DNA of 64,000 nt, taken from positions 806,001-870,000 of the forward strand of contig NZ_CP016438.1 of the NCBI RefSeq assembly GCF_001685355.1. Direction: 5' to 3'. Under the pieces are notes generated by a model, which worked only from the letters and a program-made list of their open reading frames with translations, was not told the origin of the DNA and did not search any database. This document shows positions 26,931 through 45,136 of this stretch, piece after piece (position 1 is the stretch's first letter; the number at the start of each line of letters is the position of its first letter). This DNA comes from Streptomyces lincolnensis (GTDB lineage Bacteria; Actinomycetota; Actinomycetes; Streptomycetales; Streptomycetaceae). The position numbers were made by a program, and so were the translations under genes.

Positions 26931-26954
26931 ACCTCACAGAGGAGAACCCCCACC

Positions 26955-28952: not shown

Positions 28953-29104
28953 ACCGCGCGGCGGAGAGCAGGGCGGCCGACAAGGTCATCGTCACCAGGA
29001 GCGCGGCGGGGCACGGTCGAGGCACCGGCCCGGGCGGGAGCAACGGTGACAGCCACCGATGCGACACAGGCACCCCGCCAAGTGGGTCATCCCCGGAATG
29101 ACCG

Positions 29105-29285: not shown

Positions 29286-29338
29286 CGGCTCCCCCGTCTG
29301 CCCCCCCCCGGCCGACCTCCGGCTGAAAGGACCCGCAC

Positions 29339-30343: not shown

Positions 30344-31414
30344 TCATCGAGGGGGTGTGCTGTCCCGCAGAACGATGTTCGTGGCGACCGGTACGATCCG
30401 CGAGGCGTCATCGTCGGAGAGCGCGAGCTCCACCGCACGGAGCCCGACCTGCTGCAAAGGAACGTTCACGGACGTCAGCTCCGGGACGACGTCCACCGCT
30501 GGGCCGATGTCGTCGAACCCGGCGACGGCGATGTCCCGGCCAGGGACCAGCCCGGCGTCGCGGAACGCGGTCATCACACCGATCGCCATGACGTCACTGA
30601 CCGCAAAGACGAGTTCCGTATCGTCCAGTCCCCGCTGGACGAGTTCCCTGGCCGCCGCACATCCCCCTCGGCGGCTGAACTCTGCTTCGACCACCAACCG
30701 CTCGTCGACGTCGATTCCGAACTCGCGCACGCCCTCCACGAAGCCGCTGCACCGGTCACGGGACGTCCTCAGGCCGTTCCTCGCCCGGACCACCGCGAAC
30801 CGCCGGTAGCCGAGCCCTACCAGCGCGCGTGCAAGTTGCCGCGCTCCACCGTAGTTGTCGATGCTGATGGTGCGGAACGGCAGGTCGTGCTGGCTTATCA
30901 GGACCACGCTGCCGCCCGCTTCCCGGTAGGCGCGGAGCTCCTCGACAAGTGCGTCGCGGGTGCCGGTGCCGTCGACGCGGCTGCCGGTCATGATGATGAC
31001 GCGGGGACGCATGCCACGCAGCGTCCCGACGATCTGGAGTTCCCGCTCCGGGGAGCGGTCCGCGACCGCCATGGTCACGATGAGTCCGGCGGCCTCGGCT
31101 GCCTGCGTCACCCCGGCCGCGATGGAGGAGAAGTACGGGTCGTCGACACCGCTGACGACCAGTGCGGCGATGTTCGTCGAACCCCGCGCGATCGCCTGGG
31201 CGGACAAGTGCGGCGCGTAGTCCAGTTCCGCGGCCGCGACGAGCACACGGTCGACGTTCTCCTGCCGGACATTGCGGACGCTGCCGTTGAGCACCCGCGA
31301 CGCCGTCGCCTGTGAGACGCCCGCTGCCCGCGCCACATCATGCAGGGTCACCTGACGCTTCCCGGATACGGCCTCCCCGCGACGCCGTACAGGCGCTGCC
31401 GCCCCATCTTCCAT
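30344..31414 (-). CDS. LacI family transcriptional regulator
   Basis: A roughly 356-residue LacI protein. It has a helix-turn-helix (VTLHDVARAAGVSQATASRV), a hinge region near SAQAIARG, and an effector domain ending in FDDIGPAVDVVPELTSV. The ATG at 31414 is chosen because the residues before it are Cys/Arg-rich and unlike the family; no clear ribosome binding site is visible at any start. A GCACATTGTGC inverted repeat overlaps the start region. It is divergent from and similar in sequence to the next LacI gene, so the pair may be an ancient duplication. Confidence 0.87.
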   Translation of the reverse strand: MEDGAAAPVRRRGEAVSGKRQVTLHDVARAAGVSQATASRVLNGSVRNVRQENVDRVLVAAAELDYAPHLSAQAIARGSTNIAALVVSGVDDPYFSSIAAGVTQAAEAAGLIVTMAVADRSPERELQIVGTLRGMRPRVIIMTGSRVDGTGTRDALVEELRAYREAGGSVVLISQHDLPFRTISIDNYGGARQLARALVGLGYRRFAVVRARNGLRTSRDRCSGFVEGVREFGIDVDERLVVEAEFSRRGGCAAARELVQRGLDDTELVFAVSDVMAIGVMTAFRDAGLVPGRDIAVAGFDDIGPAVDVVPELTSVNVPLQQVGLRAVELALSDDDASRIVPVATNIVLRDSTPPR

Positions 31415-31667
31415 GCCGCACATTGTGCACCGAGCCGCACAGCGCCTGGAAGTCGCGGAATCACTGCCGAGGGTCACTCCGTAGGCCGGTGCGCCTACTG
31501 TGCCGCACGTACCTGGCGGAACCCAACCGGGTCGACGCGACCACCTTCCAGCGGGCGACCGTGTCCCGAATCGGCACCGGCACTTTCGTCCTCACGTCGG
31601 CGGCCTGGTCAGGGATATCCTCGGGTAGCAGGGCGGCTCGTTTTCGTGATGCGGGAGGGACGGCACG

Positions 31668-32702
31668 ATGCCCCATTCAGCGAGGCCGACCGTCACCCTG
31701 CGTGACGTGGCAGCGGCCGCCGGTGTATCAGTGTCGACCGCGTCGCGCGTGCTGGGCGGCAGCGATCGGACGGTCGCGAAGGAATACAGGCAGCGGGTCT
31801 TCTCCGCCGCGGCCGCGTTGCGCTACACCGCGGACGCCTCGGCCCGGGCGATGCGGCGCGCGAACGACTCGATCGCGGTCATCGGCGACGACCTCACCAC
31901 CCCGTCGATGGGAATGGTCGCCGCGGCAATGGAACGCCGGGCCCGCGACGCCGGGGCGTTCGTGACCGTCTCGTCGACCCACGGCACCACTGAGAGGCAG
32001 CTCGAAACCGTCCGGCTGCAACGTGCTCTGAGGCCACGTGCGCTCATCCTGACATCGAGCCGCCTCGACACGAACGCCCTGGGCGGCCGCCTGCTCGACG
32101 AGTTGCTCGGCTACGAACGCGAGGGCGGCCGGGTGGTGATCGTCGGCGACACCGATATGCCGTTCGACTCCATCAGCTTCGACAATCACGGCCCTGCGAA
32201 GGAGCTGGGCGCCTATGTCGCCGGGGCGGGGCACAGGCACGTGACGATCCTCGCCGGCGCGCGCGGGCAGGGGAATGTCTCCGCCCGTACCGCAGGCTTC
32301 ATGGCCGGGCTCCGCGACGGCGGCGTCGAGGCGCGGCACATCCGGATCTCACACTGTGCAGTGAGCCGCCAAGGGGGGTTCGACGCGGCGCAGCGTCTGA
32401 TCGCCGAAGGGCTGGCGAAGCCTCACGCGGTCATCGCCGCCAACGACACCATCGCCATCGGCGCGATGTCCGCCTTCCGGGCTGCCGGGGTGGCGGTGCC
32501 GGACAACGTCTCGGTGACCGGTTTCGACGACATCGAGCTCGCGACCGACGTGACACCGCGGCTGACGACCGTGTCATTGCCGCTGGCGCAGGCAGGTGCC
32601 GAGGCGGTCCGTCTCGCGCTCGCGGATCGTACGGAAGCAGAGCATTTGAGGATGCGCGGGCAGATCGTGGTGCGCGACAGCACGGCGGTCAGCGTCGCCT
32701 GA
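31668..32702 (+). CDS. LacI family transcriptional regulator
   Basis: The 344-residue LacI protein has its helix-turn-helix at about 9-30 (VTLRDVAAAAGVSVSTASRV) and an effector domain with NDTIAIGAMSAFRAAGV and FDDIELATDVTPRLTTV. GGGAGGGA lies eight bases before the ATG. It resembles the divergent LacI at 30344-31414. Either protein may bind the GGAATACG(A/T)TTTCC sites downstream at 32834 and 33402, since no other regulator is as close. Confidence 0.9.
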   Translation: MPHSARPTVTLRDVAAAAGVSVSTASRVLGGSDRTVAKEYRQRVFSAAAALRYTADASARAMRRANDSIAVIGDDLTTPSMGMVAAAMERRARDAGAFVTVSSTHGTTERQLETVRLQRALRPRALILTSSRLDTNALGGRLLDELLGYEREGGRVVIVGDTDMPFDSISFDNHGPAKELGAYVAGAGHRHVTILAGARGQGNVSARTAGFMAGLRDGGVEARHIRISHCAVSRQGGFDAAQRLIAEGLAKPHAVIAANDTIAIGAMSAFRAAGVAVPDNVSVTGFDDIELATDVTPRLTTVSLPLAQAGAEAVRLALADRTEAEHLRMRGQIVVRDSTAVSVA

Positions 32703-32833
32703 ACCGCCCCTGAGCCGATCGCTCCGGCCGACGCACACAGCGCCTTCGGACCGCCAGAACCTGACACGTCGCAGACGCTTCTGCGCGTTGGCCGACCGCT
32801 TGACGCCTTGGATCACGGACGGGCCCACGGTAC

Positions 32834-32847
32834 GGAATACGATTTCC
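32834..32847. promoter_or_regulatory. LacI-type operator candidate GGAATACGATTTCC, copy 1
   Basis: A near-palindrome with a central CG, 34 bp after a TTGACG hexamer at 32800. The same hexamer-operator spacing recurs at 33368/33402. It lies just upstream of a GH59-like remnant. Confidence 0.5.
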
Positions 32848-32857
32848 TACCGATGAA

Positions 32858-33190
32858 GTGCACCTTGAGAACCTGGACGTCACCGTGCCCCGGACGGTCG
32901 ATCTCGGCATCTCCGGTGGCCCTACCCGGCGGCGCCACCCGCGCATGCTGCACACCCGCGACCTGACCGCCTCTCGCGGCATGGACAACACCCTCACCCT
33001 GGACCTCGGTCGCGTGTACACCGTGACCACCACCGGTCAGGGCGCCGGAACAACCACCACGCCCACCCGTAACCGGCTCTCCGCGCCGCGCTCGGACTCC
33101 TTCGCCGGCTACAGCACCGGACAGGAGGTGAAGTACTTCGCCTCGATGAACGGCGCCTTCCGGGCCGCCCCCTGCACCGGGGGCAAGAGG
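32858..33190 (+). pseudogene. Fragment of a GH59-like (galactosylceramidase-type) glycosidase
   Basis: The frame carries LTLDLGRVYTVTTTGQGAGT, then DSFAGYSTGQEVKYFASMNG and APCTGGK. This sequence of motifs is characteristic of the region joining the beta-sandwich and lectin-like domains of GH59 enzymes. The catalytic barrel that should precede it and the lectin domain that should follow are missing, so this is an internal fragment. It shows that another secreted glycosidase once belonged to this cluster. Confidence 0.6.
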
Positions 33191-33692
33191 CCGGGATCCT
33201 CTAGATCCGCCTGACGTCCTGGCCCCACCGGGGCAACGGCTACGCGAGCAGCCAGTGCGCAGCGCCGTCCGAAACAGCCGAGCTGCCGCACGACCCGATG
33301 CCCGCACGATGCCGTCGACTTCCGGCAGGGCCCTCCACCAAGCCGTCCCGTTCTTCCGCTCGACACCTTGACGCACTCGATCGCCACTGGGCACACTGCG
33401 CGGAATACGTTTTCCCGACGCCTCCAGGGGCGGACATGAACTTTCTTGACGGTCGGCTTCGCATCCGGGAGGGCGCTGTGACACGGGAAGCACGACTCTT
33501 GGAGCCACCGCCGAGCTCAGCCCCCGACTGGGCATGTCCGGCCGGGCCCATGCCCACGTCGTCGCGCACCCCTGGGTGCGTCCACCGCACGGTCCCGAAC
33601 TGCCCGAGCCCCGAGTCGTTACGCGACCTCTCGGCTGAGGGCGTCACGACAGGAACCGGCACCGCACCACCCCAGACGACAAGAAGAGGACC
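33191..33692. other. Upstream region of the beta-helix gene
   Basis: About 500 bp without a supported gene. It contains a candidate promoter (TTGACG at 33368-33373, 18-bp spacer, CACACT at 33392-33397) overlapping an operator-like GGAATACGTTTTCC at 33402-33415. The remaining 280 bp would be a long leader to the start at 33693. Confidence 0.4.
33402..33415. promoter_or_regulatory. LacI-type operator candidate GGAATACGTTTTCC, copy 2
   Basis: It matches copy 1 at 13 of 14 bases and has the same 34-bp distance from a TTGACG hexamer. It sits just downstream of a possible -10 (CACACT, 33392-33397), so a bound repressor would block transcription of the beta-helix gene. Confidence 0.5.
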
Positions 33693-35966
33693 ATGACCGT
33701 CACCCGAAGACTTGTGTCACGAGCAACAGCCGCCGCACTGTGCGCGCTGGCAGTCGTGCTCGCGTCGATCGTGCTCACCCCCGCGCAGCGGGCCTTCGCC
33801 GCGGGCATCACGTACTACGTGAGTGCGAGCGGCAGCGACAGCAACGCCGGAACCAGCACCAGCACGCCCTGGCGCTCGCTGAGCAAGGTGAACGCGAAGA
33901 CGTTCCAGCCCGGCGACACCATCCGTTTCGAGGCCGGTGACAGCTGGACCGGTCAGCTGTGGCCGAAGGGGTCGGGCTCCGACGGCGCCCCGATCACCAT
34001 CGACAGCTACGGGACGGGCGCCAAGCCGAAGATCGCCGGCCAGGGCACGGTCGGTGACGCGGTGCGGCTGAACAACCAGCAGTACTGGGAGATCCGCAAC
34101 CTCGACGTGTCGAACGCGGTGCCCACAGGCACGACGGACGGTTCGAAGCTCGGTGACTTCCGTGGCATCGGCGTGCACGGTGACAACGGTCAGACCCTGC
34201 ATCACTTCGTGATCGACTCGGTCGACGTGCACGACGTCACCGGAGAGGTCAAGTGGGTCGGCGGCAGCACCGCCGACAACAAGCCGGGCATCAGCTTCGC
34301 GCAGGGCTGGGACCGCTCGAAGAACACCGGCGGCATCGCCTTCCTCACCGGCGTCCAGGACATCACCGCTCCCGGCGCCCCCACGATGCTCGACGGCATC
34401 ACCGTGCAGAACTCCACCATCAAGAACACCTCGTTCAACGGAATCGTCACGAAGCAGTACGCCGGTGACGCGCCCGGCGCCGTATACACCGGCTGGGGCA
34501 AGCGCGAGACGGCCAGCGACTCCAAGTGGAAGCCCTACACCAACGTCACGTTCCGGGGTAACTACATCACGCAGGCGAACACCCCCTTCGGCTGCAACGG
34601 CATCTATGTCACCGGCGTCAAGGGCGCACTCGTCGAAGGCAACGTGATCGACCGGGTCGGCGTCTCCGGTGTCGAGACCAACATGGCCGACAGCGTCACC
34701 GTCCAGCACAACGAGATCATGGGCACCCACCTCTCGTCGGGCGGCGCCGACCAGAATGCCCTGGACCCCGACATCGGCACCACCAACCAGCTGTTCCAGT
34801 ACAACTACCTCCACGACAACGGCGACGGCATCCTGCTGTGCGCGTGCAACTCCGCGGTCAAGTTCGGCAGCGTGGTGATCCGCTACAACGTCATCACCGG
34901 CAGCAAGCGGTGGAACATCCACATGTCGCAACAGACCGGCTCGGTCGCACATGTCTACAACAACACCTTCGCCAACACCGATTCGCCGACCATGGTGACC
35001 GGCGGTGTCGGCGGCAAGGTCACGTTCACCAACAACCTGTTCGTCTCCGGACAGTCCGCACCCGAGTTCAGGCAACAGTCGACCATCATCTACAACAACA
35101 ACGGGTACTCGTCCAACCTGACGACTCGGCCCTCGTCCGACGTGAACGCCGTGGTCGGCGCTCCGCAGTTCGTGAACGCCGCCGTCACGGGGCCCTACGG
35201 CGACGAGAACGGCACGAGGCTCGGCACTGCGGCGAACTTCGCGCTCCAGTCAGGATCGGTCTTCGCCGACGCCGGTGCCACGATCACCGGCAACGGCGGC
35301 CTCGACTACTCCGGGGCAACCGTGCCGATCGGGAACGGTCCGGAGATCGGTGCCCTCGAACGGGGCGCGCCCAGTATCGCGTTCACGGACACCTTCGACG
35401 GCCTGGCGACCGGCGCGCTCGCCAACGGGACCAACGGATGGCGGGTCATCTCGACCAACAACGACGTCTCCGTGGTGGGGACGCCGTCCACCACCGACAA
35501 GAGCGTCCGGCTGACCCGCACCGTCGAAGGCGGCGGCACCGACGGAACCAACCTCGCCCGGCTCTTCAGCACCCCGCTGCAGGGCGTGGTGACCATCGAC
35601 GCGCAGGTGATGCGCAATGACGCGCAGGCCGGCTGGTTCGGGCTGCCATACCTGTACAACGCCAGCGGTGCCCCGGTTGTCAGCGTCGCGTTCGCGCGCG
35701 GCGAGATCCACGCGTACGAGGGAACCACAGACCGTGTGATCGGTACGTACACCACTGGCAAGTGGTACTCGGTCAAGCTCACCGTGGACACCGTGAACCA
35801 GCACTTCGACCTGGACATCGACGGCCGGCGCGTGCTGAACGACGCGGCGTTCCGCACATCGATGCCGGGGATCGCGAAGGTCGCGTGGTACTCGAACGGG
35901 GGCGAGCGCGGGGCCGTGCATGTGGACGACGTCTGCATCTCCCGCGGTACCGGATTCGACCAGTGA
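33693..35966 (+). CDS. Secreted right-handed parallel beta-helix protein with C-terminal LamG-like domain
   Basis: A 757-residue exported protein. Residues 1-37 form a signal peptide with an RR pair and an AFA cleavage site. Then comes YYVSASGSDSNAGTSTSTPW, the usual entry of beta-helix polysaccharide lyases/hydrolases, followed by many helix turns (HNEI, YNYLHDNGDGI, YNVITGS) to about residue 560. The C-terminal 200 residues resemble a LamG/concanavalin-type sandwich (FDGLATGALANGTNGWRV). It probably cleaves or binds a plant polysaccharide outside the cell; the exact family is not identifiable by eye. Confidence 0.85.
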   Translation: MTVTRRLVSRATAAALCALAVVLASIVLTPAQRAFAAGITYYVSASGSDSNAGTSTSTPWRSLSKVNAKTFQPGDTIRFEAGDSWTGQLWPKGSGSDGAPITIDSYGTGAKPKIAGQGTVGDAVRLNNQQYWEIRNLDVSNAVPTGTTDGSKLGDFRGIGVHGDNGQTLHHFVIDSVDVHDVTGEVKWVGGSTADNKPGISFAQGWDRSKNTGGIAFLTGVQDITAPGAPTMLDGITVQNSTIKNTSFNGIVTKQYAGDAPGAVYTGWGKRETASDSKWKPYTNVTFRGNYITQANTPFGCNGIYVTGVKGALVEGNVIDRVGVSGVETNMADSVTVQHNEIMGTHLSSGGADQNALDPDIGTTNQLFQYNYLHDNGDGILLCACNSAVKFGSVVIRYNVITGSKRWNIHMSQQTGSVAHVYNNTFANTDSPTMVTGGVGGKVTFTNNLFVSGQSAPEFRQQSTIIYNNNGYSSNLTTRPSSDVNAVVGAPQFVNAAVTGPYGDENGTRLGTAANFALQSGSVFADAGATITGNGGLDYSGATVPIGNGPEIGALERGAPSIAFTDTFDGLATGALANGTNGWRVISTNNDVSVVGTPSTTDKSVRLTRTVEGGGTDGTNLARLFSTPLQGVVTIDAQVMRNDAQAGWFGLPYLYNASGAPVVSVAFARGEIHAYEGTTDRVIGTYTTGKWYSVKLTVDTVNQHFDLDIDGRRVLNDAAFRTSMPGIAKVAWYSNGGERGAVHVDDVCISRGTGFDQ

Positions 35967-36018
35967 CAGCCAGGTCCAACTGGTGGCGCGGTATTAGGGT
36001 AAGTGCGCCCGAGCCAGT

Positions 36019-36026
36019 AAGCGCTT
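36019..36026. promoter_or_regulatory. AAGCGCTT motif downstream of the beta-helix gene
   Basis: GTAAGCGCTTCC contains the same AAGCGCTT core as 36862-36869 and the GH5 palindrome at 20156-20169. It lies 50 bp after a stop codon and just before a terminator, an odd place for an operator; it could be a decayed or looping site. Confidence 0.3.
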
Positions 36027-36070
36027 CCGCCTTCCAGGGGGCCCAACTCAAGCTGACGCCCTGACAAAGA

Positions 36071-36117
36071 GAAATCAGCTCTGCCAGGGCCGACATCGGC
36101 CTGGCAGAGCTGATTTC
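36071..36117. terminator. Strong bidirectional hairpin terminator
   Basis: Arms GAAATCAGCTCTGCCAGG and CCTGGCAGAGCTGATTTC pair perfectly over 18 bp, extended toward the loop with one bulged G. The hairpin lies between the convergent beta-helix and SGNH genes. The AAATC/GATTT ends give a short U-run in either direction. Confidence 0.85.
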
Positions 36118-36125
36118 CGTACTGA

Positions 36126-36770
36126 TCAACGTGATGAAATCTGCTGCAGCCTGTCACTTACCACCGGCAGATAGAATGTGGTGATACCGGCCATGTTGGG
36201 GTGCGTTCCCGATCCCTCCGCGCCAGGGAAACCGTCGACCAGGTCATCGAATGTGTATTTTGCACGCTGAGCGTCATCACGCGTGTCGAACGTGGTGTCC
36301 CCGAAGATGTCGGCGATGGCGATGCCCCACTTGCGACAGGTCTCCAAGGTCACTTCACGCAGCGCCACCTGAGTGCCCCAGTCCCGCGAACCGAGTTTGT
36401 GGGCGGCGACGTACACGATGGGGGCGGTCGGCCATTTCCGCCTCATTGTGTGCAGCGTCTTCTCCAGCTCAGCCGCGTAGGTCGCGATCGTGTACGCGTG
36501 GTCCCTGAAGATGGACTGGGCATCGTTGACGCCGCCGTCAAAGATAACGAAGTCCGGCGCGATGTCGGTCGCCTGCTCGACCTGCGCAAGTATCTGCCCG
36601 CCGGAAGCATGTGGGTCGGCGCCGATGGTCGCACCATTCCGGGCGAACTTGGTGAGGGTCATCCCCTCGCGCTCGGAAACGAGGTCCACAAAACTGTGCG
36701 GATATACATGTCCGTACACAATGCTGTCCCCGAAGGCGTAGATACTCTTGCCCACCAACCCACTGTTCAC
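36126..36770 (-). CDS. SGNH/GDSL family hydrolase, probably cytoplasmic
   Basis: A 214-residue SGNH-fold esterase with block I AFGDSIVYG (nucleophile S16), the oxyanion Gly/Asn in block III (GGVND, N82) and block V GTHPN (H190). The Asp normally three residues before that His is Ser187, so the catalytic triad looks incomplete or uses another acid. There is no signal peptide. Carbohydrate acetyl-esterases are common in this family, which suits the polysaccharide cluster. The start is GTG at 36770 with AGGGAGAA upstream. Its base composition is also lower in G+C than the surrounding genes. Confidence 0.83.
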   Translation of the reverse strand: MNSGLVGKSIYAFGDSIVYGHVYPHSFVDLVSEREGMTLTKFARNGATIGADPHASGGQILAQVEQATDIAPDFVIFDGGVNDAQSIFRDHAYTIATYAAELEKTLHTMRRKWPTAPIVYVAAHKLGSRDWGTQVALREVTLETCRKWGIAIADIFGDTTFDTRDDAQRAKYTFDDLVDGFPGAEGSGTHPNMAGITTFYLPVVSDRLQQISSR

Positions 36771-36861
36771 ATCATTCTCCCTGCGGCTTCGCTATTTCAG
36801 GATTGATTTTAGGCAGAACATTGACCCGTTGGGTGATCAGTGCGTAAATTAAAGAGATAGA

Positions 36862-36869
36862 AAGCGCTT
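36862..36869. promoter_or_regulatory. AAGCGCTT operator core between SGNH and cupin genes
   Basis: GAAAGCGCTTAC lies in the AT-rich divergent spacer, 36 bp before the cupin start. It is a typical LacI-family half-site pair and recurs in the GH5 promoter and after the beta-helix gene. Confidence 0.45.
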
Positions 36870-36897
36870 ACTATCATGAAGCGGAGTGTTGACCCAC

Positions 36898-37608
36898 ATG
36901 AGCACAACCAACACCGGATTGCCCGGGGGCGTCGCCATCTCGCATCTGTCGGTGTACGACTGGCCTGCCGCCGACGGGGTGTGCGGCGGCACACCTCACA
37001 TGCACCTGGCCTGTTCGGAGGCTTACGTCGTCACCAGCGGACGCGGGGCCGTGCAGACGCTGACCGCGTCCGGGTACGAGGTCACTCCGCTCCAGGCCGG
37101 TACGGTCGCCTGGTTCACGCCCGGCACCATCCACCGGCTGGTGAACGGGGGCGATCTGCGGATCACCGTTCTGATGCAGAACAGCGGACTGCCGGAGGCG
37201 GGGGACGCCGTCCTCACGCTGCCCCCGCAGTACCTGACCGATCCGGAGACGTACGCCCGCGCCACGGCCATCCCGGCCGACGCGCCCGAGGAGGAGCAGG
37301 AGCGCGTTGCCCGGGCCAGGCGGGACCTCGCTCTGGAGGGATATCGGGCACTGCGGGAGGCCGAGGGGCCACAGACTCTGGCCGCGTTCCACCGGGCCGC
37401 CGCCGCGCTGGTACGGCCGCGCATCGCCGAGTGGCGCGAGCGGTGGCGCCGAGGTGCCGAGGCCTCCGCCGCGGCCACCGGGGCGCAGCTCGACTGGCTG
37501 GAGCGGGGAGAGTCCCCCCATCTCGTGGATGCCACCGTGAGGTCCGAACAGCCCGTTGCCCGCAGGAAGTTCGGAATGTGCGGTCGGCTCGACGTCTACC
37601 AGAACTGA
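36898..37608 (+). CDS. Cupin domain protein
   Basis: The 236-residue protein has an N-terminal cupin barrel. Motif 1 is PHMHLACSEAYVVTSGRG at about residues 32-49, and motif 2 is around TPGTIHRLVNGG. The second half is helical and rich in Arg/Glu. Cupins of this kind bind sugars or act as isomerases and sugar sensors in carbohydrate loci. The ATG at 36898 is preferred (GGAG 11 bases upstream); a GTG at 36886 is also in frame. It is divergent from the SGNH gene. Confidence 0.8.
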   Translation: MSTTNTGLPGGVAISHLSVYDWPAADGVCGGTPHMHLACSEAYVVTSGRGAVQTLTASGYEVTPLQAGTVAWFTPGTIHRLVNGGDLRITVLMQNSGLPEAGDAVLTLPPQYLTDPETYARATAIPADAPEEEQERVARARRDLALEGYRALREAEGPQTLAAFHRAAAALVRPRIAEWRERWRRGAEASAAATGAQLDWLERGESPHLVDATVRSEQPVARRKFGMCGRLDVYQN

Positions 37609-37744
37609 TGCCGGTGCGCGCTTGAGGCCCGGCGGCGTACGCGGCCGGGCCGGCTCGCGCCTGAAGCCGACAGGACGGCAGCGCCGCCAGGGGGACGCAC
37701 AGGCGCCGCTGGCCCGCGCCCGTTCCGGCAGCACCCGCCTTTGG

Positions 37745-38779
37745 TCACCGCCTGCGGCTGGGACGCTTGGTCGCGGGCGGCTCGCCCGTCGACTCCCGCC
37801 AGATGATGCGGAGGAGGGGTTCATCCTTCGCCTCGGGCACCGTATTGAGCAACCCCGCGATCAGCTTGGCCATGGCCGTACTGCCAAGTTGTTCGAGCTC
37901 CACGTCGACGGTGGTCAGGGACGGGGTCATGAACTGCCCGACCCCCGCGTTGTCCCAACCGGTCACGCTGAGGTCTCCCGGCACGTCCCAGCCGCGCTCA
38001 CGGGCGCCCCGGACGACACCGGCGGCCACAAGGTCGTTGGCCGCGATCACCGCGGTCGGCCGCGAACGGCTCGAGAGCGACCGAATCGCCTCGATGCCGG
38101 ACTCTCCCGACCAGTCCCCGTCGAAGACGCCGACGGACTCGACCCCGAGGCGTTCGACGGTGTCCAGATAGCTCTGCCTGCGCGCCCTGGCGGAAGCGAA
38201 CTGCGCGTCGCCCGCCACATGGAGAAACCGGGAGTGGCCGAGCGACGCCAAGTGCTCGATCATCCGCACCACGGGCGTGGCGTCGGCCAGCTCCCCGATG
38301 CCGCGCATCTCGTCGTCGAAGTCGGCCGAGATCACCACGGTCGTCCGCTGGTGCAGTTTGCGCTCCACCTCGGGAAGCACGGGAGCGAGGGAGAGAATGC
38401 CCTCGTACTGTCCCGAATCGGCGAGCTCCAGCAGTCGGTCACTCCTCGCCCGTACGCCGCCTCCGGCGCTCACGACGTCCACGAAATACCCCGCGGTGTG
38501 CGCTGTGGCGCTGGCTCCTGCCAGCATGCGTGACGGGTTGAAGGCCATGGCGGGCATGAGGATCGCCAGCCGGCCGGTCTTCCGTGTGCGCATCGACCGC
38601 GCCACCAGGTTGGGGCGGTAGTCGAGTTCGCGTATGGCCTTCTCCACGCGTTCCAGGGTCGCGGGCTTCAGCCCGCCGTTGAACCGCAGATACCGCGACA
38701 CCGTCTGGGGTGACACACCGGCGAGTCGCGCCACATCAGTGATCGTAGGCCGTCGTCGCGCCGTGTCAGCGCCGTCCAT
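37745..38779 (-). CDS. LacI family transcriptional regulator of the ABC operon
   Basis: The 344-residue LacI protein has its helix-turn-helix at about 11-32 (PTITDVARLAGVSPQTVSRY) and an effector domain with AANDLVAAGVVRGARERG. GGGGGAAG precedes the ATG at 38779. It is divergent from the sugar importer operon, and the spacer contains two identical operators in inverted order around a consensus-like promoter, so repression of the importer until a sugar binds is very likely. Confidence 0.92.
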   Translation of the reverse strand: MDGADTARRRPTITDVARLAGVSPQTVSRYLRFNGGLKPATLERVEKAIRELDYRPNLVARSMRTRKTGRLAILMPAMAFNPSRMLAGASATAHTAGYFVDVVSAGGGVRARSDRLLELADSGQYEGILSLAPVLPEVERKLHQRTTVVISADFDDEMRGIGELADATPVVRMIEHLASLGHSRFLHVAGDAQFASARARRQSYLDTVERLGVESVGVFDGDWSGESGIEAIRSLSSRSRPTAVIAANDLVAAGVVRGARERGWDVPGDLSVTGWDNAGVGQFMTPSLTTVDVELEQLGSTAMAKLIAGLLNTVPEAKDEPLLRIIWRESTGEPPATKRPSRRR

Positions 38780-38831
38780 CCGCTTCCCCCACCTTCCGCC
38801 AACTTTCGGTGAAGTCAGAGACTACACACTC

Positions 38832-38861
38832 TTGACGCAAAAAGTGATCGTTCACTATGGT
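38832..38861 (+). promoter_or_regulatory. Promoter of the sugar ABC importer operon
   Basis: TTGACG (38832-38837) and TATGGT (38856-38861) are separated by 18 bp. The spacer is filled by operator copy A (38843-38856). The first gene starts about 100 bp downstream. Confidence 0.7.
38843..38856. promoter_or_regulatory. LacI operator, copy A
   Basis: AGTGATCGTTCACT is an imperfect palindrome lying between the -35 and -10 hexamers of the importer promoter. Its exact reverse complement occurs 34 bp downstream as copy B. Confidence 0.8.
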
Positions 38862-38876
38862 CCTCGCAACCCACAA

Positions 38877-38890
38877 AGTGAACGATCACT
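38877..38890. promoter_or_regulatory. LacI operator, copy B
   Basis: AGTGAACGATCACT is the exact reverse complement of copy A, with centres 34 bp apart. It lies just downstream of the likely transcription start. Two sites suggest cooperative binding by the LacI protein encoded at 37745-38779. Confidence 0.8.
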
Positions 38891-38963
38891 TTTCGGGTGA
38901 CGCGTGGCCCGGGACGGGCCCGCACCACTGTCTGCCGATGCCGCCGCTCAAGGGAGCAGTGCC

Positions 38964-39884
38964 GTGAGCTCCATCAACGAACTACGCCGGCTGCGCGGGT
39001 CCCAAAAGGGCGCGCGACAGCAGAACAAGGCGGCGTTCTTCTTCCTACTGCCATGGTTCGTCGGGCTCTTCGGGATCACTCTCGGCCCGATGCTGGCCTC
39101 GCTCTACCTCAGCTTCACCAAGTACAACCTGCTGCAGCCGCCGCAGTTCAGCGGACTCGACAACTGGACGCGCATGGTCGACGACGAGCGTCTGCACAAG
39201 TCGCTCGAAGTGACGTTCAGCTACGTCCTCGTCTCCGTCCCGCTGCAACTGGCGATGGCCCTGGGGCTCGCTCTGCTGCTGGACAGGGGAGTGCGAGGAC
39301 TTGCCTTCTACCGCTCCGTCTTCTACCTGCCGTCACTGATCGGCGGCAGCGTGGCGATCGCCGTGCTGTGGCGCGCGATGTTCGGGACCAACGGCCTTGT
39401 CAACGAGGCCCTGGCCCTCGTCGGTATCCAGGGGCAGGGCTGGATCTCGGAGCCCGGAACGGCGCTGTCGACCCTCGTCGTCCTGAACGTCTGGACCTTC
39501 GGCTCCCCCATGGTGATCTTCCTCGCCGGGCTGCGGCAGATTCCGACCTCCCTCTACGAGGCGGCCTCCGTCGACGGCGCGAAGCGCTGGCGCCAGTTCC
39601 GCAGCATCACCATTCCGCTGCTGACACCCATCATCTTCTTCAACCTGGTGCTGCAGATCATCCACGCCTTCCAGACCTTCACCCAGGCCTTCGTGGTCTC
39701 CGGTGGCACCGGAGGCCCCGCCGACTCCACCCTCTTCTTCTCGCTGTACCTGTACCAGCGCGGGTTCGGCCACTTCGACATGGGATACGCGTCCGCGCTC
39801 GCGTGGGTCCTGCTCCTCATCGTCGCGGCCTTCACCGCCGTCAACTTCTGGGCCTCAAAGTACTGGGTGTTTTACGATGACTGA
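38964..39884 (+). CDS. Sugar ABC transporter permease (MalF type)
   Basis: A 306-residue membrane permease with six hydrophobic helices (first FFFLLPWFVGLFGITLGPML) and the EAA loop EAASVDGAKRWRQF that contacts the ATPase. It is the first gene of the importer operon. GGGAG lies seven bases before the GTG at 38964, so this start is preferred over the longer frame beginning at 38904. The stop overlaps the next permease start. Confidence 0.93.
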   Translation: MSSINELRRLRGSQKGARQQNKAAFFFLLPWFVGLFGITLGPMLASLYLSFTKYNLLQPPQFSGLDNWTRMVDDERLHKSLEVTFSYVLVSVPLQLAMALGLALLLDRGVRGLAFYRSVFYLPSLIGGSVAIAVLWRAMFGTNGLVNEALALVGIQGQGWISEPGTALSTLVVLNVWTFGSPMVIFLAGLRQIPTSLYEAASVDGAKRWRQFRSITIPLLTPIIFFNLVLQIIHAFQTFTQAFVVSGGTGGPADSTLFFSLYLYQRGFGHFDMGYASALAWVLLLIVAAFTAVNFWASKYWVFYDD

Positions 39885-40773
39885 CCGCGCCGTAGCCGTA
39901 CCTTCCTCGCTACCCACCCCCCGCCCCCACGTGATACGCCGGATCAGACGCGCGGTGCGCGCCCCTCTCAAACACTGCCTACTGGCTCTCTGCGCCCTGA
40001 CGATGCTCTACCCCGTCCTGTGGATGGTGGTCAGCTCGCTGCGGCCCAACAACCAGATCTTCCGCAGCGCGGGACTCGCCCTGACGCACCCGCACTTCGA
40101 GAACTACAGCAACGGCTGGAACGCCTTCTCCCAACCGTTCAGCCACTACATGATCAACTCGGCGATCGTCGTGACCGGCGCGATCCTCGGGAACCTCCTC
40201 GCCTGCTCCCTGGCCGCATACGCGTTCGCCAGGCTGGAATTCCGGGCGAAGCGCGTCTGGTTCGCCGTCATGCTCGTCACCATCATGCTGCCGATCCACG
40301 TGATCATCGTGCCGCAGTACGTCCTGTTCTCGGAGCTCGGCTGGGTCAACACGTTCCTGCCCCTGATCGTGCCGAAGTTCCTGGCGACCGACGCCTTCTT
40401 CATCTTCCTGATGGTGCAGTTCATCCGGGGCATCCCGCGCGAGATCGACGAGGCCGCACGGATCGACGGCGCCGGGCACGCGCGGATCTTCTTCTCCCTC
40501 ATCCTCCCGCTGATGGTCCCGGCGCTGGCGACCACCGCGATCTTCACCTTCATCTGGACCTGGAACGACTTCTACACCCAGCTCATTTATCTGACCGACC
40601 CGGACATGTACACCACGCCTCTCGCGCTGCGCACCTTCGTCGACCAGCAGACCGCGACGGACTGGGGCTCGGTGTTCGCGATGAGTGTCGTGTCGCTCGT
40701 ACCCGTCTTCCTCATCTTCCTCACCGGACAGCGCTTCCTGCTGCGAGGCATCGCGACCACCGGCGGCAAGTAA
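39877..40773 (+). CDS. Sugar ABC transporter permease (MalG type)
   Basis: A 298-residue partner permease with six membrane helices and the EAA loop DEAARIDGAGHARIFFSLIL. It begins at the ATG at 39877, eight bases before the end of the MalF-type gene. Together the two form the carbohydrate uptake transporter-1 type channel. No ATPase gene is present in the operon or window, so a shared ATPase (MsiK in Streptomyces) presumably energises it. Confidence 0.93.
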   Translation: MTDRAVAVPSSLPTPRPHVIRRIRRAVRAPLKHCLLALCALTMLYPVLWMVVSSLRPNNQIFRSAGLALTHPHFENYSNGWNAFSQPFSHYMINSAIVVTGAILGNLLACSLAAYAFARLEFRAKRVWFAVMLVTIMLPIHVIIVPQYVLFSELGWVNTFLPLIVPKFLATDAFFIFLMVQFIRGIPREIDEAARIDGAGHARIFFSLILPLMVPALATTAIFTFIWTWNDFYTQLIYLTDPDMYTTPLALRTFVDQQTATDWGSVFAMSVVSLVPVFLIFLTGQRFLLRGIATTGGK

Positions 40774-40875
40774 CTGCGGGGGCTACTGCCGGACATGTGG
40801 AGGCGCCCGAAGCCCTGACCGCTCGGGAGCACCTCAGTCATCAACCCGCCCACCCATCAGGCACAGGAGAAGCAC

Positions 40876-42180
40876 ATGAAAGCCAGCCCCTTCAGACGCG
40901 TCGCCATCGGAGCGTTCGCCTCACTCTCGCTCACACTGACCGCCTGCTCCGGTGGCAGCACCGAATCCGCTTCCGAGCTCAGCGACAAGCCGGTCACCAT
41001 CCGCGCCACCTGGTGGGGAGCGGACACCCGTGCCCAGCTCACCGACGAGGTCATCAAGGCGTTCGAGAAGAAGTACCCCAACATCACGGTCAAGGGCCAG
41101 TACAAGGACTGGAACGGCTACTGGGACGCGCTCGCCACGACGACCGCGGCCAAGGACTCTCCCGACGTCGTCCAGATGGACGAGTTGTACCTCGCGTCGT
41201 ACGCCGACCGCGGAGCGCTGTACGACCTCGGCAAGGCCAAGAAGCTCCTCAGCACGTCACAGTTCGACGACCAGGCCCTGGCCACCGGGCAGGTCAACGG
41301 AACGCAGTACGCGCTTCCCGTCGGCGTCGGCGTCCTGTCCATCCTCGTGAACACCGACCTGTTCAAGAAGTACGGCGTGACGGTTCCCGACGACAAGACA
41401 TGGACGTGGGACGACTACGCCAAGATCGGGAAGGAACTGACCGACAAGAGTGGCGGCAAGATCCACGGCGCCGCCGGCGCGCCCGGCTTCTCCGCCGGCG
41501 ACGTCAAGTACTGGGCTCGTCAGCACGGTGAGAACCTCTTCGACAAGGACGGCAACGTCTCGTTGAAGCCCGAGACGCTCGCCGGGATGTGGAAGTACGG
41601 TCTGGACCTGACCTCCTCGGGGGCCAGCGTCAAGGCGTCGACGATGGTCGAGGACCTGACCGCGGGTGTCACCGCCGGCAGCTTCGCCACCGGCAAGGCG
41701 GCCATGATGGGGGTGTACAACACCCAGATCACTGCGATCCAGCAGGCCGCCGGCGCCCAGGTGAAACTGCTGCAGATGCCTCGTGCCGACAGCACCAAGG
41801 CCAACTTCTTCAAGCCCTCCATGTACTGGGCGGTCTCCAGCCAGAGCAAGCACCCGGCCGAGGCGGCCGCGTTCATCGACTTCATGCTCAACGACCGGAA
41901 GGCCGCCGACATCCTCAAGACGGAGCGCGGCATCCCCGCCAACAAGGAGATGCTGAAGCACCTCCAGCCGGGACTGGCCGGGACCGACAAGGCGGCAGCC
42001 GACTACATGAACGCCGTGACCCCGGGTGAGTCACCGGTCGTGACCCCCAACGGCGGAAGCGGCATCGAACCGCAGCTGCAGCGCTACAGCCAGGAGGTCT
42101 ACTTCAAGAAGACCTCGCCCGAAGCCGCCGCGAAGGCCTTCATCAAGGAGCTCCAGGGCGAGATCGACGCGGCCAAGTGA
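40876..42180 (+). CDS. Sugar ABC transporter substrate-binding lipoprotein
   Basis: A 434-residue extracytoplasmic binding protein with a lipobox LTAC (Cys at about residue 24) and a family-1 carbohydrate-binding fold (WWGADTRAQLTDEVIKAFEK; PVGVGVLSILVNTDLFKKYG). It captures the oligosaccharide outside the cell and delivers it to the two permeases. AGGAGA precedes the ATG. Here it is the third gene, while in many loci the binding protein comes first. A strong terminator follows. Confidence 0.93.
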   Translation: MKASPFRRVAIGAFASLSLTLTACSGGSTESASELSDKPVTIRATWWGADTRAQLTDEVIKAFEKKYPNITVKGQYKDWNGYWDALATTTAAKDSPDVVQMDELYLASYADRGALYDLGKAKKLLSTSQFDDQALATGQVNGTQYALPVGVGVLSILVNTDLFKKYGVTVPDDKTWTWDDYAKIGKELTDKSGGKIHGAAGAPGFSAGDVKYWARQHGENLFDKDGNVSLKPETLAGMWKYGLDLTSSGASVKASTMVEDLTAGVTAGSFATGKAAMMGVYNTQITAIQQAAGAQVKLLQMPRADSTKANFFKPSMYWAVSSQSKHPAEAAAFIDFMLNDRKAADILKTERGIPANKEMLKHLQPGLAGTDKAAADYMNAVTPGESPVVTPNGGSGIEPQLQRYSQEVYFKKTSPEAAAKAFIKELQGEIDAAK

Positions 42181-42187
42181 CCTCCTT

Positions 42188-42221
42188 CCTGGGGGCCGTC
42201 GCCGCTGCGACGGCCCCCAGG
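42188..42221 (+). terminator. Hairpin terminator after the binding-protein gene
   Basis: CCTGGGGGCCGTCGC and GCGACGGCCCCCAGG form a perfect 15-bp stem with a CGCT loop, beginning 8 bp after the stop. No U-tract follows, as is usual in Streptomyces. It may attenuate rather than stop transcription, since the dehydrogenase gene follows after 45 bp. Confidence 0.8.
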
Positions 42222-42266
42222 AGCCCCACGAGAAGTGGGTCAGGAACCAAGAGAGAGAACACACCC

Positions 42267-43382
42267 ATGCCCAGCCCCCGGCCGCCGTACCGCGTGGCCA
42301 TCATCGGCACCGGCGGTATCGCCCACGCGCATGCCGAAGCCCTCACCGAACTCTCCGAACGTGCCCGGCTGGTCGCCGTCGCCGATGTCGACCTCACCCG
42401 TGCCGCCGAGTTCGCCGACCGATTCTCCGTGCCGCACGTCTTCAGTGACCCGCAGGCTCTGCTGGAGAGCCAAGACCTCGATCTCGTACACATCTGTACG
42501 CCCCCGCAGACCCACGCACCCCTGGCGACCATGGTGATGCGGGCCGGCGTGACCGCCCTGGTGGAGAAGCCGACGGCGCTGAGCCTGCGCGAGCTGGACC
42601 AACTGGCCACGGTGCAGGAGGAGACCGGCTCCAAGGTTCTGACCGTCTTCCAGCACCGCTACGGAGCTGCCGCCGTACGTCTGAGACGGCTGGCCGACTC
42701 CGGCGCACTGGGCCGGCCACTGGTCGCCACCTGCGAGACCCTCTGGTACCGGTCCGACGCGTACTTCGAAGTCCCGTGGCGGGGACGCTGGGACGTCGAG
42801 GGTGGCGGCCCCACGATGGGACACGGCATCCATCAGTTCGACCTGATGCTGTCGGTTTTCGGCTCCTGGTCCCAGATCACCGCACTCGCCGAGCGCCAGG
42901 CCCGGCCCACGGACACCGAGGACGTCTCGATCGCCGCCGTCCGGTTCGACAACGGAGCCCTCGCCACGGTGGTCAACTCCCTGCTGTCCCCGCGGGAGAC
43001 CTCGCGCCTGCGCTTCGACTTCGAATACGCCACGGTCGAACTCGAACACCTCTACGGCTACCGCGAGGAGCACTGGCGGTTCACCCCGGCCCCCGGCCAC
43101 GAGGAGCTCTCGGCCCTCTGGACCGACGGTGACGAGCCGGACATCACGAGCGGCCACAGGCTCCAGATCGAGGCCGTGCTCGACGCCTGGGAGACCGGAC
43201 AGGAACCCGGCGTCTGTCTGCAGGACGCGCGTCGCACGCTGGAGTTCGCGGCGGCGACGTACGCCTCGGCCTTCCGCGGTGTCCCCGTCGCAGCGGGCGA
43301 ACTGACCGACGACGACCCATTCGCGGTCAGCATGGACGGCGGCGCCGTGCCGTGGGAACCGGTCAAGGAGGCCCTCGTATGA
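42267..43382 (+). CDS. Gfo/Idh/MocA family NAD(P)-dependent sugar dehydrogenase
   Basis: The 371-residue protein has a Rossmann domain (VAIIGTGGIAHAHAEAL), the conserved VEKPTALS with the catalytic Lys, and a C-terminal alpha/beta dimerisation domain (GGGPTMGHGIHQFDLML). It should oxidise or epimerise a sugar or sugar acid imported by the preceding transporter. It starts at the ATG at 42267 behind a GAGAGAGAA ribosome binding site and overlaps the next gene by four bases. Confidence 0.9.
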   Translation: MPSPRPPYRVAIIGTGGIAHAHAEALTELSERARLVAVADVDLTRAAEFADRFSVPHVFSDPQALLESQDLDLVHICTPPQTHAPLATMVMRAGVTALVEKPTALSLRELDQLATVQEETGSKVLTVFQHRYGAAAVRLRRLADSGALGRPLVATCETLWYRSDAYFEVPWRGRWDVEGGGPTMGHGIHQFDLMLSVFGSWSQITALAERQARPTDTEDVSIAAVRFDNGALATVVNSLLSPRETSRLRFDFEYATVELEHLYGYREEHWRFTPAPGHEELSALWTDGDEPDITSGHRLQIEAVLDAWETGQEPGVCLQDARRTLEFAAATYASAFRGVPVAAGELTDDDPFAVSMDGGAVPWEPVKEALV

Positions 43383-44341
43383 ACGCTCTTGAGATCCGCC
43401 ACGACCTCGGCGCCTCGGTCACGGTCCGCGACGGCGGCACCGAGCTGTTCCGCTACGTGTACCGGCCGGACACCGTCCAGCTGGAATCACCCAAGCCCTA
43501 CATCCACCCCCTGCGCACCCGGGCCGGCAAGGTGGTCAGCCTGTTCCGACCCCACGACCACGTGTGGCACAAGGGCATCGCGTGGTCCCTGCCGCACGTC
43601 GGCGAGGAGAACTTCTGGGGCGGTCCCACGTACATCCACGGACGCTTCTACGTCCAGCTGGAGAACAACGGAACCCAGGCCCACCGCCTGGTCACGACCC
43701 TGGACCGGGCCGACGGAACGGCGACGTTCGCCCACGACCTGGACTGGACCACCCAGTCCGGCGCGCTCTTCTTCACCGAACGCAGAACGCTGCGAGCGAG
43801 CCTGATCTCCCCGCACGCCTGGGCATTGACGTTCGAGACCCGGATGACGAACGTCTCCGGAACGGACGTCACCATGGGATCACCGACCACCAAGGGACGG
43901 GAGAACGCCGGCTACGGCGGCCTGTTCTGGCGAGGCCCACGGTCGTTCACCGGCGGACAGTTCGTGACCGAGGAAGGCCTGGGCGGCGACGAGGTCCGAG
44001 GGCGGCGCATGGAGTGGATGGGCTTCGCGGGCCGCCACGACGAGACGGACGCGCAGTCGCTCGTACTCATGCTCGACGACACGGCCAACCCGAGTCACCC
44101 GCCGCAGTGGTTCGCCCGGACCGAGGAGTTCGCCTGCCTCAACCCGGCACCGTTCTTCAGCGAGGAGCTGACCGTCGAGGACGGCGAGACCGTGCGGTTC
44201 CGTTATGGGGTGGGCATCGCCGATGCCGACGCGAGCGCGGCTCCCGCACTAGCCGACGCGGTACGCCAGGCGCTCACACGGTCGGATACGCCGTCCGCAC
44301 GTGCCGCAGGATCCTCCTCGGGGCGCTTCGCGACGGAGTGA
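43379..44341 (+). CDS. PmoA-like (DUF6807) family protein
   Basis: The 320-residue protein matches the family annotated as methane-oxygenase PmoA-like or DUF6807. It has YIHPLRTRAGKVVSLFRPHD, HVWHKGIAWS and the His/Trp-rich FFTERRTLRAS region. It is soluble and has no resemblance to a membrane monooxygenase, so the historical name is misleading. These proteins usually sit next to Gfo/Idh/MocA dehydrogenases in sugar loci, as here, with ATGA overlap. Function unknown; a sugar-processing beta-sandwich is a reasonable view. Confidence 0.85.
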   Translation: MNALEIRHDLGASVTVRDGGTELFRYVYRPDTVQLESPKPYIHPLRTRAGKVVSLFRPHDHVWHKGIAWSLPHVGEENFWGGPTYIHGRFYVQLENNGTQAHRLVTTLDRADGTATFAHDLDWTTQSGALFFTERRTLRASLISPHAWALTFETRMTNVSGTDVTMGSPTTKGRENAGYGGLFWRGPRSFTGGQFVTEEGLGGDEVRGRRMEWMGFAGRHDETDAQSLVLMLDDTANPSHPPQWFARTEEFACLNPAPFFSEELTVEDGETVRFRYGVGIADADASAAPALADAVRQALTRSDTPSARAAGSSSGRFATE

Positions 44342-44369
44342 GCCGACCCTGCTCGCTATGCAAGCCCTC

Positions 44370-44404
44370 GGCGTGCACTCCCCGCTCACCAGGGAGTGCA
44401 CGCC
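44370..44404 (+). terminator. Hairpin terminator at the end of the sugar cluster
   Basis: GGCGTGCACTCCC and GGGAGTGCACGCC pair over 13 bp around a nine-base loop, followed by TTCCTC. It lies 29 bp after the stop of the PmoA-like gene and closes the operon. Confidence 0.8.
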
Positions 44405-44591
44405 TTCCTCGCCACCCCAGCTGCTGCGATCGCCGTAGACGCAAGTGTCTGCGAACGGCAGCGAGGAAGTACCAGACACGTACGATCATGATGGCGGCCC
44501 TGATTGTCCGCTCGGACCCAGCACGGCCCCGACTACGTCACCTTTCACCCGTTGATGCCACATGCCCCGCCGGTGCGAGGCCACTTGCTCG

Positions 44592-44960
44592 ACAGGTGAC
44601 AGTGTTCCGCACGCGGCAGGAGGAGTTGGACACGCAGGTCGACCGCAACCCGGTCGAGGCGTGGGACCTGCCCGGCATCGCGAGCACTACCGGACTTTCA
44701 TCGACCATTGGAGCGGCCTGTTTTCGCACATCGGCACCTACCGCGTCACCGGTCCGACGCGGTGCGCGCACGGGAGCGAGGTCATGCACGCTTACCGGCA
44801 CTTCCCCATTCTGGACCCGCTGCTCCCCATGGGGCTGTTGCCGCCCCACTGGCCACGCTCACGGGCGCGGGAAGTCTGCGTCGCGGTGTACGACGGCCCA
44901 CTCCAGCCGGCCCAGGACCATGTCCGCGCCGTGGTGATGCGATTCGCGCCTCGGCCGTTG
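44592..44960 (+). pseudogene. PaaX-family regulator fragment with a frameshift
   Basis: One frame gives VFRTRQEELDTQVDRNPVEA then WDLPGIA. After loss of one base near 44682, another frame continues EHYRTFIDHWSGLFSHIG, HAYRHFPILDPLLPMGLLPP and WPRSRAREVCVAVYDG. This order is that of the C-terminal half of PaaX-type repressors. The N-terminal winged helix is missing. PaaX regulators control phenylacetate-type catabolism. Confidence 0.65.
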
Positions 44961-45110
44961 CCACCGTCGGCCGGGGTGGACCAAGGATCTGGCCGGTCCT
45001 CGCGTCCGCCATCCAGGAGGACGGCGTGGAGCTGTCCTCGTCGACCTTGAACTCCTCCAGACCCGGCCGGGACGGGTCGAGGTCGCCCACGTACATCGCG
45101 TTCGGCCCCG
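44900..45110 (-). pseudogene. Fragment of a rhamnogalacturonan lyase (PL11-like)
   Basis: On the minus strand the frame from about 45105 to 44985 encodes AMYVGDLDPSRPGLEEFKVD then ADARTGQI, a hallmark of family 11 rhamnogalacturonan lyases. A single-base loss near 44983 shifts the reading into WSTPADGGNGRG, the expected continuation. Everything before and after is missing. It points to pectin-type substrates for the neighbouring cluster. Confidence 0.65.
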
Positions 45111-45136
45111 GTCGAGGCGTTCCATCTGCCGCGCGG

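Follow-up and report, generated by a model that had tools for sequence, protein, structure and literature searches.

A conserved actinobacterial locus with a coupled Gfo–DUF6807 gene pair in Streptomyces lincolnensis and its possible role in the uptake of pectic oligosaccharides

Gene content of the locus

We analysed a window of 64,000 nucleotides from Streptomyces lincolnensis (positions 806001-870000 of NZ_CP016438.1, labelled G000:C1, a single-contig genome of 10.3 Mb; G+C of the window 68.8%) and focused on a locus in which a gene for a Gfo/Idh/MocA dehydrogenase (Gfo) is coupled to a gene for a DUF6807 protein. Genes for an ABC importer, a cupin, an SGNH/GDSL hydrolase, a secreted beta-helix enzyme and three LacI-family regulators accompany this pair. 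The closest relative of the DUF6807 protein came from Streptomyces massasporeus (92% identical). A preliminary description of the stretch, made from its letters alone, had proposed a pectin or rhamnogalacturonan utilisation locus; all the genes that it named were present (Pfam; PF14100 for DUF6807, PF13472 for the SGNH protein), and Pfam confirmed its three LacI regulators. The features are listed in window positions; labels beginning with G and L denote the genomes and loci compared.

30344-31477, minus strand: LacI-family regulator 1 (LacI1; Pfam LacI and Peripla_BP_3)
31668-32702, plus strand: LacI-family regulator 2 (LacI2; Pfam)
32834-32847: operator-like site GGAATACGATTTCC, 5' of the GH59 remnant
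32858-33214, plus strand: GH59 remnant, an open reading frame (ORF) of 118 amino acids (match to the GH59 of L157/L158)
33402-33415: operator-like site GGAATACGTTTTCC, 5' of the beta-helix gene
33693-35966, plus strand: secreted beta-helix enzyme, GH136-like, with Asp353/Asp360 kept and a probable concanavalin-like C-terminal domain
36126-36770, minus strand: SGNH/GDSL hydrolase (PF13472, E 1.7e-17)
36862-36870: AAGCGCTTA site in the divergent promoter of the SGNH and cupin genes
36898-37608, plus strand: cupin protein (Pfam; longest ORF from 36886)
37745-38779, minus strand: LacI-family regulator 3 (LacI3; Pfam), whose orthologues track the GTGATCGTTCAC-N22-GTGAACGATCAC operator
38832-38861, plus strand: promoter-like TTGACG-N18-TATGGT with the first operator copy inside the spacer (sequence reading)
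38844-38889: operator pair GTGATCGTTCAC-N22-GTGAACGATCAC
38964-39884, plus strand: ABC permease 1 (PF00528; longest ORF from 38904)
39877-40773, plus strand: ABC permease 2 (PF00528; 8-base overlap with permease 1)
40876-42180, plus strand: lipoprotein solute-binding protein (SBP) of YesO type (Pfam, YesO match)
42267-43382, plus strand: Gfo/Idh/MocA dehydrogenase (Pfam)
43379-44341, plus strand: DUF6807 protein, annotated PmoA-like (PF14100, E 7e-76)
44595-44947, plus strand: remnant of a PaaX-type regulator gene (L173:1248-1601, within a gene of the PaaX family, matches at 88%)
44947-45137, minus strand: remnant of a PL11 rhamnogalacturonan lyase gene, in two pieces with an internal deletion

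Inspection by eye revealed a lipobox in the SBP and a signal peptide in the beta-helix protein. The latter, described beforehand as secreted with a LamG-like tail, probably does carry such a tail (concanavalin-like PF22585 at 25 bits, just below the 27-bit cut-off). The SGNH protein, said to be intracellular, showed no signal peptide by eye, and the importer was correctly described as lacking its own ATPase, with two permeases and an SBP and no ABC ATPase among the locus genes scanned with Pfam. Loci of this system in Nonomuraea, Catellatospora, Actinoplanes and Rhizocola carry homologues of LacI1 (up to 68% identity) and LacI2 (up to 71% identity).

Conservation of the locus in relatives

Species genomes were scanned with a DUF6807 alignment; of the 432 relatives obtained, the 80 best loci were analysed further, and Actinomycetota supply most of the neighbourhood counts. 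The gene caller in our script, a simple GC-position caller, misses genes (its DUF6807 cluster spanned 44 of the 80 loci), and presence was therefore counted by searching six-frame ORFs with profiles; the caller underlies the grouping of loci by LacI3 and LacI1/2 and the SBP comparison set. The results showed a Gfo gene within 1 kb of DUF6807 and on the same strand in 77 of the 80 loci, and a cupin gene within 1.5 kb in 53. The beta-helix gene was found in at least 21 of the 80 loci, a lower bound because loci were truncated at 10 kb or where the contig stops. Each of these 21 also carried Gfo, DUF6807 and cupin genes, and 18 of them a permease and an SBP. The gene set recurred in Streptomyces, Saccharothrix, Nonomuraea, Micromonospora, Catellatospora, Actinoplanes, Rhizocola, Microbacterium and on a Paenarthrobacter plasmid, so that the composition, which had been taken for new, is not unique to this strain.

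Gene order differed between genera. The beta-helix gene and the cupin gene lie upstream in Streptomyces, and the loci of Catellatospora and Rhizocola, with several of Nonomuraea, run LacI, importer, Gfo, DUF6807, cupin, beta-helix. The same order was seen on plasmid pTC2 of Paenarthrobacter aurescens TC1 (L119), where the large last gene matches the beta-helix profile; this plasmid, conjugative according to PLSDB, holds the whole locus from the regulators to the beta-helix gene. A second LacI-Gfo unit, served by a separate operator pair (20357 and 20392), was seen near the main locus at L013:19279-20506.

Pectin-related genes adjoin the locus in some relatives. Downstream of DUF6807, G023 carries genes for GH5, PL11, GH53, GDSL, PL9 and GH43 proteins (Pfam), the GDSL protein giving a weak partial match to the pectin acetylesterase PaeY. 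In G393, genes 91-96% identical to these are joined by a PaaX-type regulator, and PL11 also lies 3' of the locus in L008 (intact) and L011 (DNA match). A link to pectin or rhamnogalacturonan, at which the PL11 fragment was said to hint, is supported by these neighbours.

Coupling of Gfo and DUF6807

The start of DUF6807 overlaps the stop of Gfo in an ATGA at 43379-43382, which is preceded by AAGGAGG. Similar Gfo-DUF6807 overlaps are annotated in Paenarthrobacter, Streptomyces NBC_01001 and Halomontanus records, the first two of which also show a DUF6807-cupin overlap, and fused Gfo-DUF6807 frames were found in L083 (Leifsonia sp. Leaf264, Pfam) and L109 (own profiles only). Each of the three DUF6807 copies of the S. 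lincolnensis genome adjoins one of its 25 Gfo genes; taking 25 Gfo genes among about 9000 genes in all, we estimate the adjacency null at 0.0056. The second copy again forms a Gfo-DUF6807-cupin module, and the third pair lies among genes for PL1, a PL1-CE8 protein, a GDSL protein and GH43. An even sample of 296 Actinomycetota genomes had 33 DUF6807 places, spread over 20 genomes that include S. lincolnensis. Leaving out the window's own place and one fragment without a profile match gave 31 places, two of them the other copies of this genome, and 24 of the 31 had an adjacent Gfo.

The DUF6807 protein was predicted to be a beta protein with a mutarotase-like supersandwich fold (mean predicted local distance difference test score, pLDDT, 90.9 in a 74-sequence model). 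A first model built from 20 close sequences was too poor (pLDDT 68.9), and its fold matches were not used. In its predicted fold the protein is like the galactose mutarotase-like superfamily, but significant sequence similarity to a solved chain was not found (best E 0.18). Many DUF6807 members are named in databases after a methane oxygenase subunit. PmoA is a subunit of particulate methane monooxygenase, a membrane protein of transmembrane helices; the predicted beta fold lends no support to this naming, and a part in methane or ammonia oxidation was rejected on the strength of it.

The PDB homologues of Gfo included DgpA, glucuronide-3-dehydrogenase and inositol dehydrogenases alike, and no NCBIfam cut-off was reached. 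The pair resembles the oxidation-elimination systems of glycoside cleavage (DgpA with CGE; the AtOGE system) in that a Gfo-family sugar oxidoreductase stands beside a second sugar enzyme. It differs in the partner, here DUF6807 with its mutarotase-like fold in place of a sugar-phosphate-isomerase-type eliminase, and no such eliminase was found among the locus genes scanned. One report (PMC5342196) places a PF14100 gene between two unusual beta-galactosidases on a metagenomic lactose-complementing clone assigned to Verrucomicrobia. No published function of DUF6807 was found in the open-licence literature, and together with the conserved coupling to Gfo this agrees with the earlier judgement that the role of PmoA-like proteins is unsettled and that this locus is a good place to find it.

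Operators and regulation

The pair GTGATCGTTCAC-N22-GTGAACGATCAC lies between LacI3 and permease 1, with its first copy between TTGACG and TATGGT. The exact pair occurs once in the S. lincolnensis genome. Of 150 genomes of the genus, 8 (counting G000) have a looser pair (spacer 18-26, W at two places per half): in G000, G023, G386, G393 and G398 it marks the orthologous locus, and in G412, G388 and G304 a variant locus with a GH42-type gene, an SGNH homologue, an SBP, a permease and Gfo-DUF6807 (identities from Pfam on the GH42, SGNH-ricin and GH43 members). A LacI3-type site was present in 31 of the 34 loci with a LacI3 orthologue, compared with 1 of the 46 without.

The GGAATACGTTTTCC site stands 5' of the beta-helix gene here and 5' of the importer or Gfo operon in other genera. 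A shared-palindrome search found it 5' of the importer or Gfo operon in 17 of 18 LacI1/2-type loci, a count that is not independent because the motif was discovered in those loci, compared with 7 of 18 comparison loci; in the close Streptomyces and Saccharothrix loci it lies 5' of the beta-helix gene. A scan of the class revealed 8 exact sites in 6 of 296 genomes, and 6 of the 8, the window's own included, lie beside a beta-helix or permease gene of the system. The other two are in G615, with no match to the system's proteins, and in G491, where the GC-position caller found no gene nearby. G023 holds a second GH59 and beta-helix pair with the same operator (L187, G023:1160682). Further, the intact GH59 ORF of L157 and L158 has GGAATACGATTTCC at its 5' end, and a variant, GGAAAACGTTTTCC, lies 5' of the fused Gfo-DUF6807 gene of L083. 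The placement of GGAATACGTTTTCC across genera indicates that the beta-helix enzyme and the Gfo-DUF6807 module likely belong to one regulon, as predicted from these sites.

Other sites were also recorded. Of the 10 close loci L007-L016, 5 have a site like AAGCGCTTA 5' of their cupin gene. The TAAGCGCTT site (36018-36026) lies just past the beta-helix stop, between convergent gene ends, and was also seen in L008, L010, L011 and L016. A perfect palindromic variant of the GGAATACGTTTTCC operator, GGAAATCGATTTCC (22611-22624), lies between divergent LysR and FAA-hydrolase genes and may be due to chance.

The beta-helix enzyme

The beta-helix protein matched five distinct PDB sequences of the GH136 kind (E 1.7e-22 to 8e-13), of which four bear the name lacto-N-biosidase. 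In ErLnb136 the acid/base and nucleophile are D568/D575 (PMC7335108), taken from their spacing as chain positions 570/577; on this basis, D353/D360, seven residues apart, align with the catalytic pair. PDB chain 24mr has Ser at the nucleophile position. D353/D360 were conserved in all 120 homologues listed of the 779 found, as were N355, K254, Q255 and E328. Some homologues carry ricin-B lectin domains, and in P0156 a GDSL domain is fused.

The protein thus resembles the GH136 lacto-N-biosidases LnbX and ErLnb136 in homology along the beta-helix and in a catalytic Asp pair spaced by seven, but differs in gene neighbourhood and C-terminal domain. With the NCBIfam LnbX model it reached 78 bits, missing the equivalog threshold of 2500, and it is therefore called GH136-like and not a lacto-N-biosidase. 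A reading as a pectate lyase was dropped, since the solved relatives are GH136 and the Asp pair is kept.

The solute-binding protein and its ligand

The best solved relative of the SBP was Bacillus subtilis YesO (E 6e-60). Contacts of YesO to unsaturated galacturonate were taken from PMC7596534 and compared with the 31 other SBPs of the group. Among the uronate contacts, Trp20, Arg25 and Gln255 were kept in all 31, and Asp75, Lys284 and Ser286 in 30. Two of the eight uronate contacts checked were changed, Asn127 being G, A, S or T in 30 of the 31 and the Asn254 position T in 29. The galactose contact Asn251 was A, W, G or V in 28, and Asp239 was changed too (by eye). With the clamp kept but Asn127, Asn254 and Asn251 changed, the alignment suggests that the ligand likely bears a carboxylate, but is not likely to be identical to that of YesO.

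The importer genes resemble yesOPQR, the rhamnogalacturonan I uptake genes of B. subtilis, in having a YesO-family SBP with a carboxylate clamp, two permeases and no adjoining ATPase gene. They differ in that the GH105 hydrolase (YesR) is not in the locus, a Gfo-DUF6807-cupin set standing there instead, in LacI control, and in the loss of Asn127 and Asn254. No GH105 hydrolase was found among the locus genes scanned, and the sole genome match to GH88/105 lies at 9.69 Mb (29 bits, cut-off 26.6).

Erosion of the local island

The GH59 and PL11 remnants reported beforehand proved real, both enzymes being intact at matching places in relatives. The GH59 remnant ORF was 56% identical over 92% of its length to the GH59 of L157 (G386) and L158 (G398), two loci in which an intact GH59 gene (Pfam E 3.6e-111 and 3.9e-112) separates LacI2 from the beta-helix gene. 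The PL11 remnant has a Pfam score of 27.8 bits at 44983-45102 (minus strand), just above the 27-bit cut-off. Over 156 bp it shares 96% identity with an open gene of 659 aa close to this locus in G393, and that gene in turn shares 96% identity with the PL11 of G023, which Pfam confirmed. This scar reaches about 45137, past the end of the span first described (45110). A third scar, of the PaaX-type regulator gene (44595-44947), came in addition to these two and keeps 353 bp; between the two short PL11 pieces, material is deleted.

Related genes persist elsewhere in the genome. The region at 768-788 kb holds GH53, GDSL, PL9-like and GH43 genes, recognised by 81-91% identity to those of the relatives and, for GH53, by a family search as well; a complete PL11 gene is at 8.34 Mb. 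The scars at the locus together with these genes indicate that the local island has eroded and that the wider capacity is present.

Proposed function and alternatives

With a probability of about 0.5, we read the locus as one that actinobacteria conserve for taking up and breaking down oligosaccharides of pectic rhamnogalacturonan I (RG-I) or of its galactan-type side chains, and that has undergone local erosion in this strain. Its core, the uptake of acidic RG-I/galactan oligosaccharides, is moderately supported. The interpretation put forward in the preliminary description stood in part: the YesO-like SBP with its clamp, the PL11, PL9, GH53 and GH43 genes by the locus in relatives and the S. 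lincolnensis Gfo-DUF6807 pair near PL1/CE8 support its link to pectin, and the substrate itself is a proposal.

Several findings weigh against this reading. On the DUF6807 side of the locus, no pectin genes were seen in G386 and G398, which have a histidine kinase and a molybdopterin oxidoreductase instead. The SBP contacts at Asn127, Asn254, Asn251 and Asp239 are altered. Seven of the 31 sampled DUF6807 places, one at a contig edge, lack an adjacent Gfo. In one locus the Gfo-DUF6807-cupin module is found beside an endo-xylanase and an arabinofuranosidase, and elsewhere beside GH42 and GH43, and an archaeal Gfo-DUF6807 pair, for which no cupin is annotated, lies near GH32 and a sulfatase; with such xylan and galactoside loci, the pair is not specific to pectin and is no indicator of it by itself. 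Among solved structures, the beta-helix enzyme comes closest to lacto-N-biosidases. Control of GH53 by LacI3 is kept as a weak lead, the single site 70 bp 5' of the gene being near chance (0.41 expected per genome), and the seven relatives compared have no such site less than 4 kb from a GH53 gene. Finally, the one GH88/105-like gene elsewhere means that absence of a hydrolase route is not established.

The steps of the proposed route would be as follows. The secreted GH136-like beta-helix enzyme, to judge from homology and catalytic residues, would cut oligosaccharides off the polymer. An acidic oligosaccharide would then be imported by the YesO-type SBP and the two permeases, presumably energised by the shared ATPase MsiK. 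Inside the cell, the SGNH protein probably removes acyl groups. Gfo and then DUF6807, whose translation is coupled, would act on the imported sugar, the former oxidising a ring hydroxyl and the latter carrying out a keto-sugar reaction on its mutarotase-like scaffold, and with the cupin often present as third partner. This redox step may stand in for a cytosolic hydrolase, because the scanned locus genes include no cytosolic glycosidase and a genome with PL11, PL1 and PL9-like genes has one weak GH88/105 match. Co-occurrence suggests that LacI3 represses the importer-Gfo-DUF6807 operon at GTGATCGTTCAC-N22-GTGAACGATCAC and that LacI1 or LacI2 controls the beta-helix gene at GGAATACGTTTTCC. We infer the identity of the polymer (RG-I or its side chains), the directions of the reactions, the deacylation, the pairing of regulators with sites and the redox route.

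A different substrate, a neutral galactan or arabinogalactan fragment supplied by GH59, GH53, GH43 and GH42 and bound by a YesO-like SBP that has drifted to a neutral ligand, is conceivable but the less probable choice. Consistent with it, GH59, the galactocerebrosidase family, adjoins the beta-helix gene in L157 and L158; the variant loci of G412, G388 and G304 carry GH42 and GH43 under the same operator (Pfam on members; gene order); and an operator-like site precedes the GH53 gene of S. lincolnensis. Single LacI3-type sites also lie about 450 bp 5' of a GH43 ORF in G398 (L177:5722; Pfam) and likewise in G023 (L150:1501), before an ORF with a similar start (by eye). However, the Trp/Arg carboxylate clamp of YesO is kept in 31 of 31 other SBPs, and PL11 and PL9, which act on an acidic backbone, flank the locus in G023 and G393.

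For DUF6807 itself, we tentatively propose that it is the second half of a widespread oxidation-dependent glycoside route, an enzyme of a new catalytic kind that might cleave or hydrate the keto-glycoside made by Gfo and, in pectin loci, replace the GH105/GH88 step for uronic acid-ended oligosaccharides. It may instead be an anomerase or epimerase with true mutarotase chemistry that feeds or drains Gfo and leaves the glycosidic bond unbroken, which we also regard as a speculative assignment. If true, the redox route through DUF6807 could explain some plant-sugar import loci without a matching cytosolic hydrolase. The conserved, coupled and sometimes fused Gfo partner, together with two predicted operators and a probable ligand class, makes the function of DUF6807 directly testable.

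Loss of function of a decaying island in this strain appears improbable. GH59, PL11 and the PaaX-type gene are reduced to scars, but the remaining genes match the lengths of the relatives' genes, both operator types are intact, and the GH53, GDSL, PL9-like and GH43 genes and a complete PL11 persist elsewhere. A role in the use of a lacto-N-biose-like or glycoprotein glycan is very improbable: GH136 members of known function are lacto-N-biosidases (PMC7335108, PMC8106489), but GH112 or hexosamine families were not reported among the 29 proteins scanned, pectin enzymes adjoin the locus in G023 and G393, and the LnbX score falls far short of its cut-off.

Neighbouring genes in the window

Beside the locus, at 45880-49869, lies a gene for a 1329-aa STAND NTPase (nSTAND1) with an N-terminal helix-turn-helix and a WD40 C-terminus, which gave a weak partial match in PADLOC (27 bits). 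On the other side, 21615-30121 holds genes of aromatic-acid catabolism, namely LysR, two FAA hydrolases, an FAD hydroxylase, an amidohydrolase, a glyoxalase/dioxygenase and a CoA transferase.

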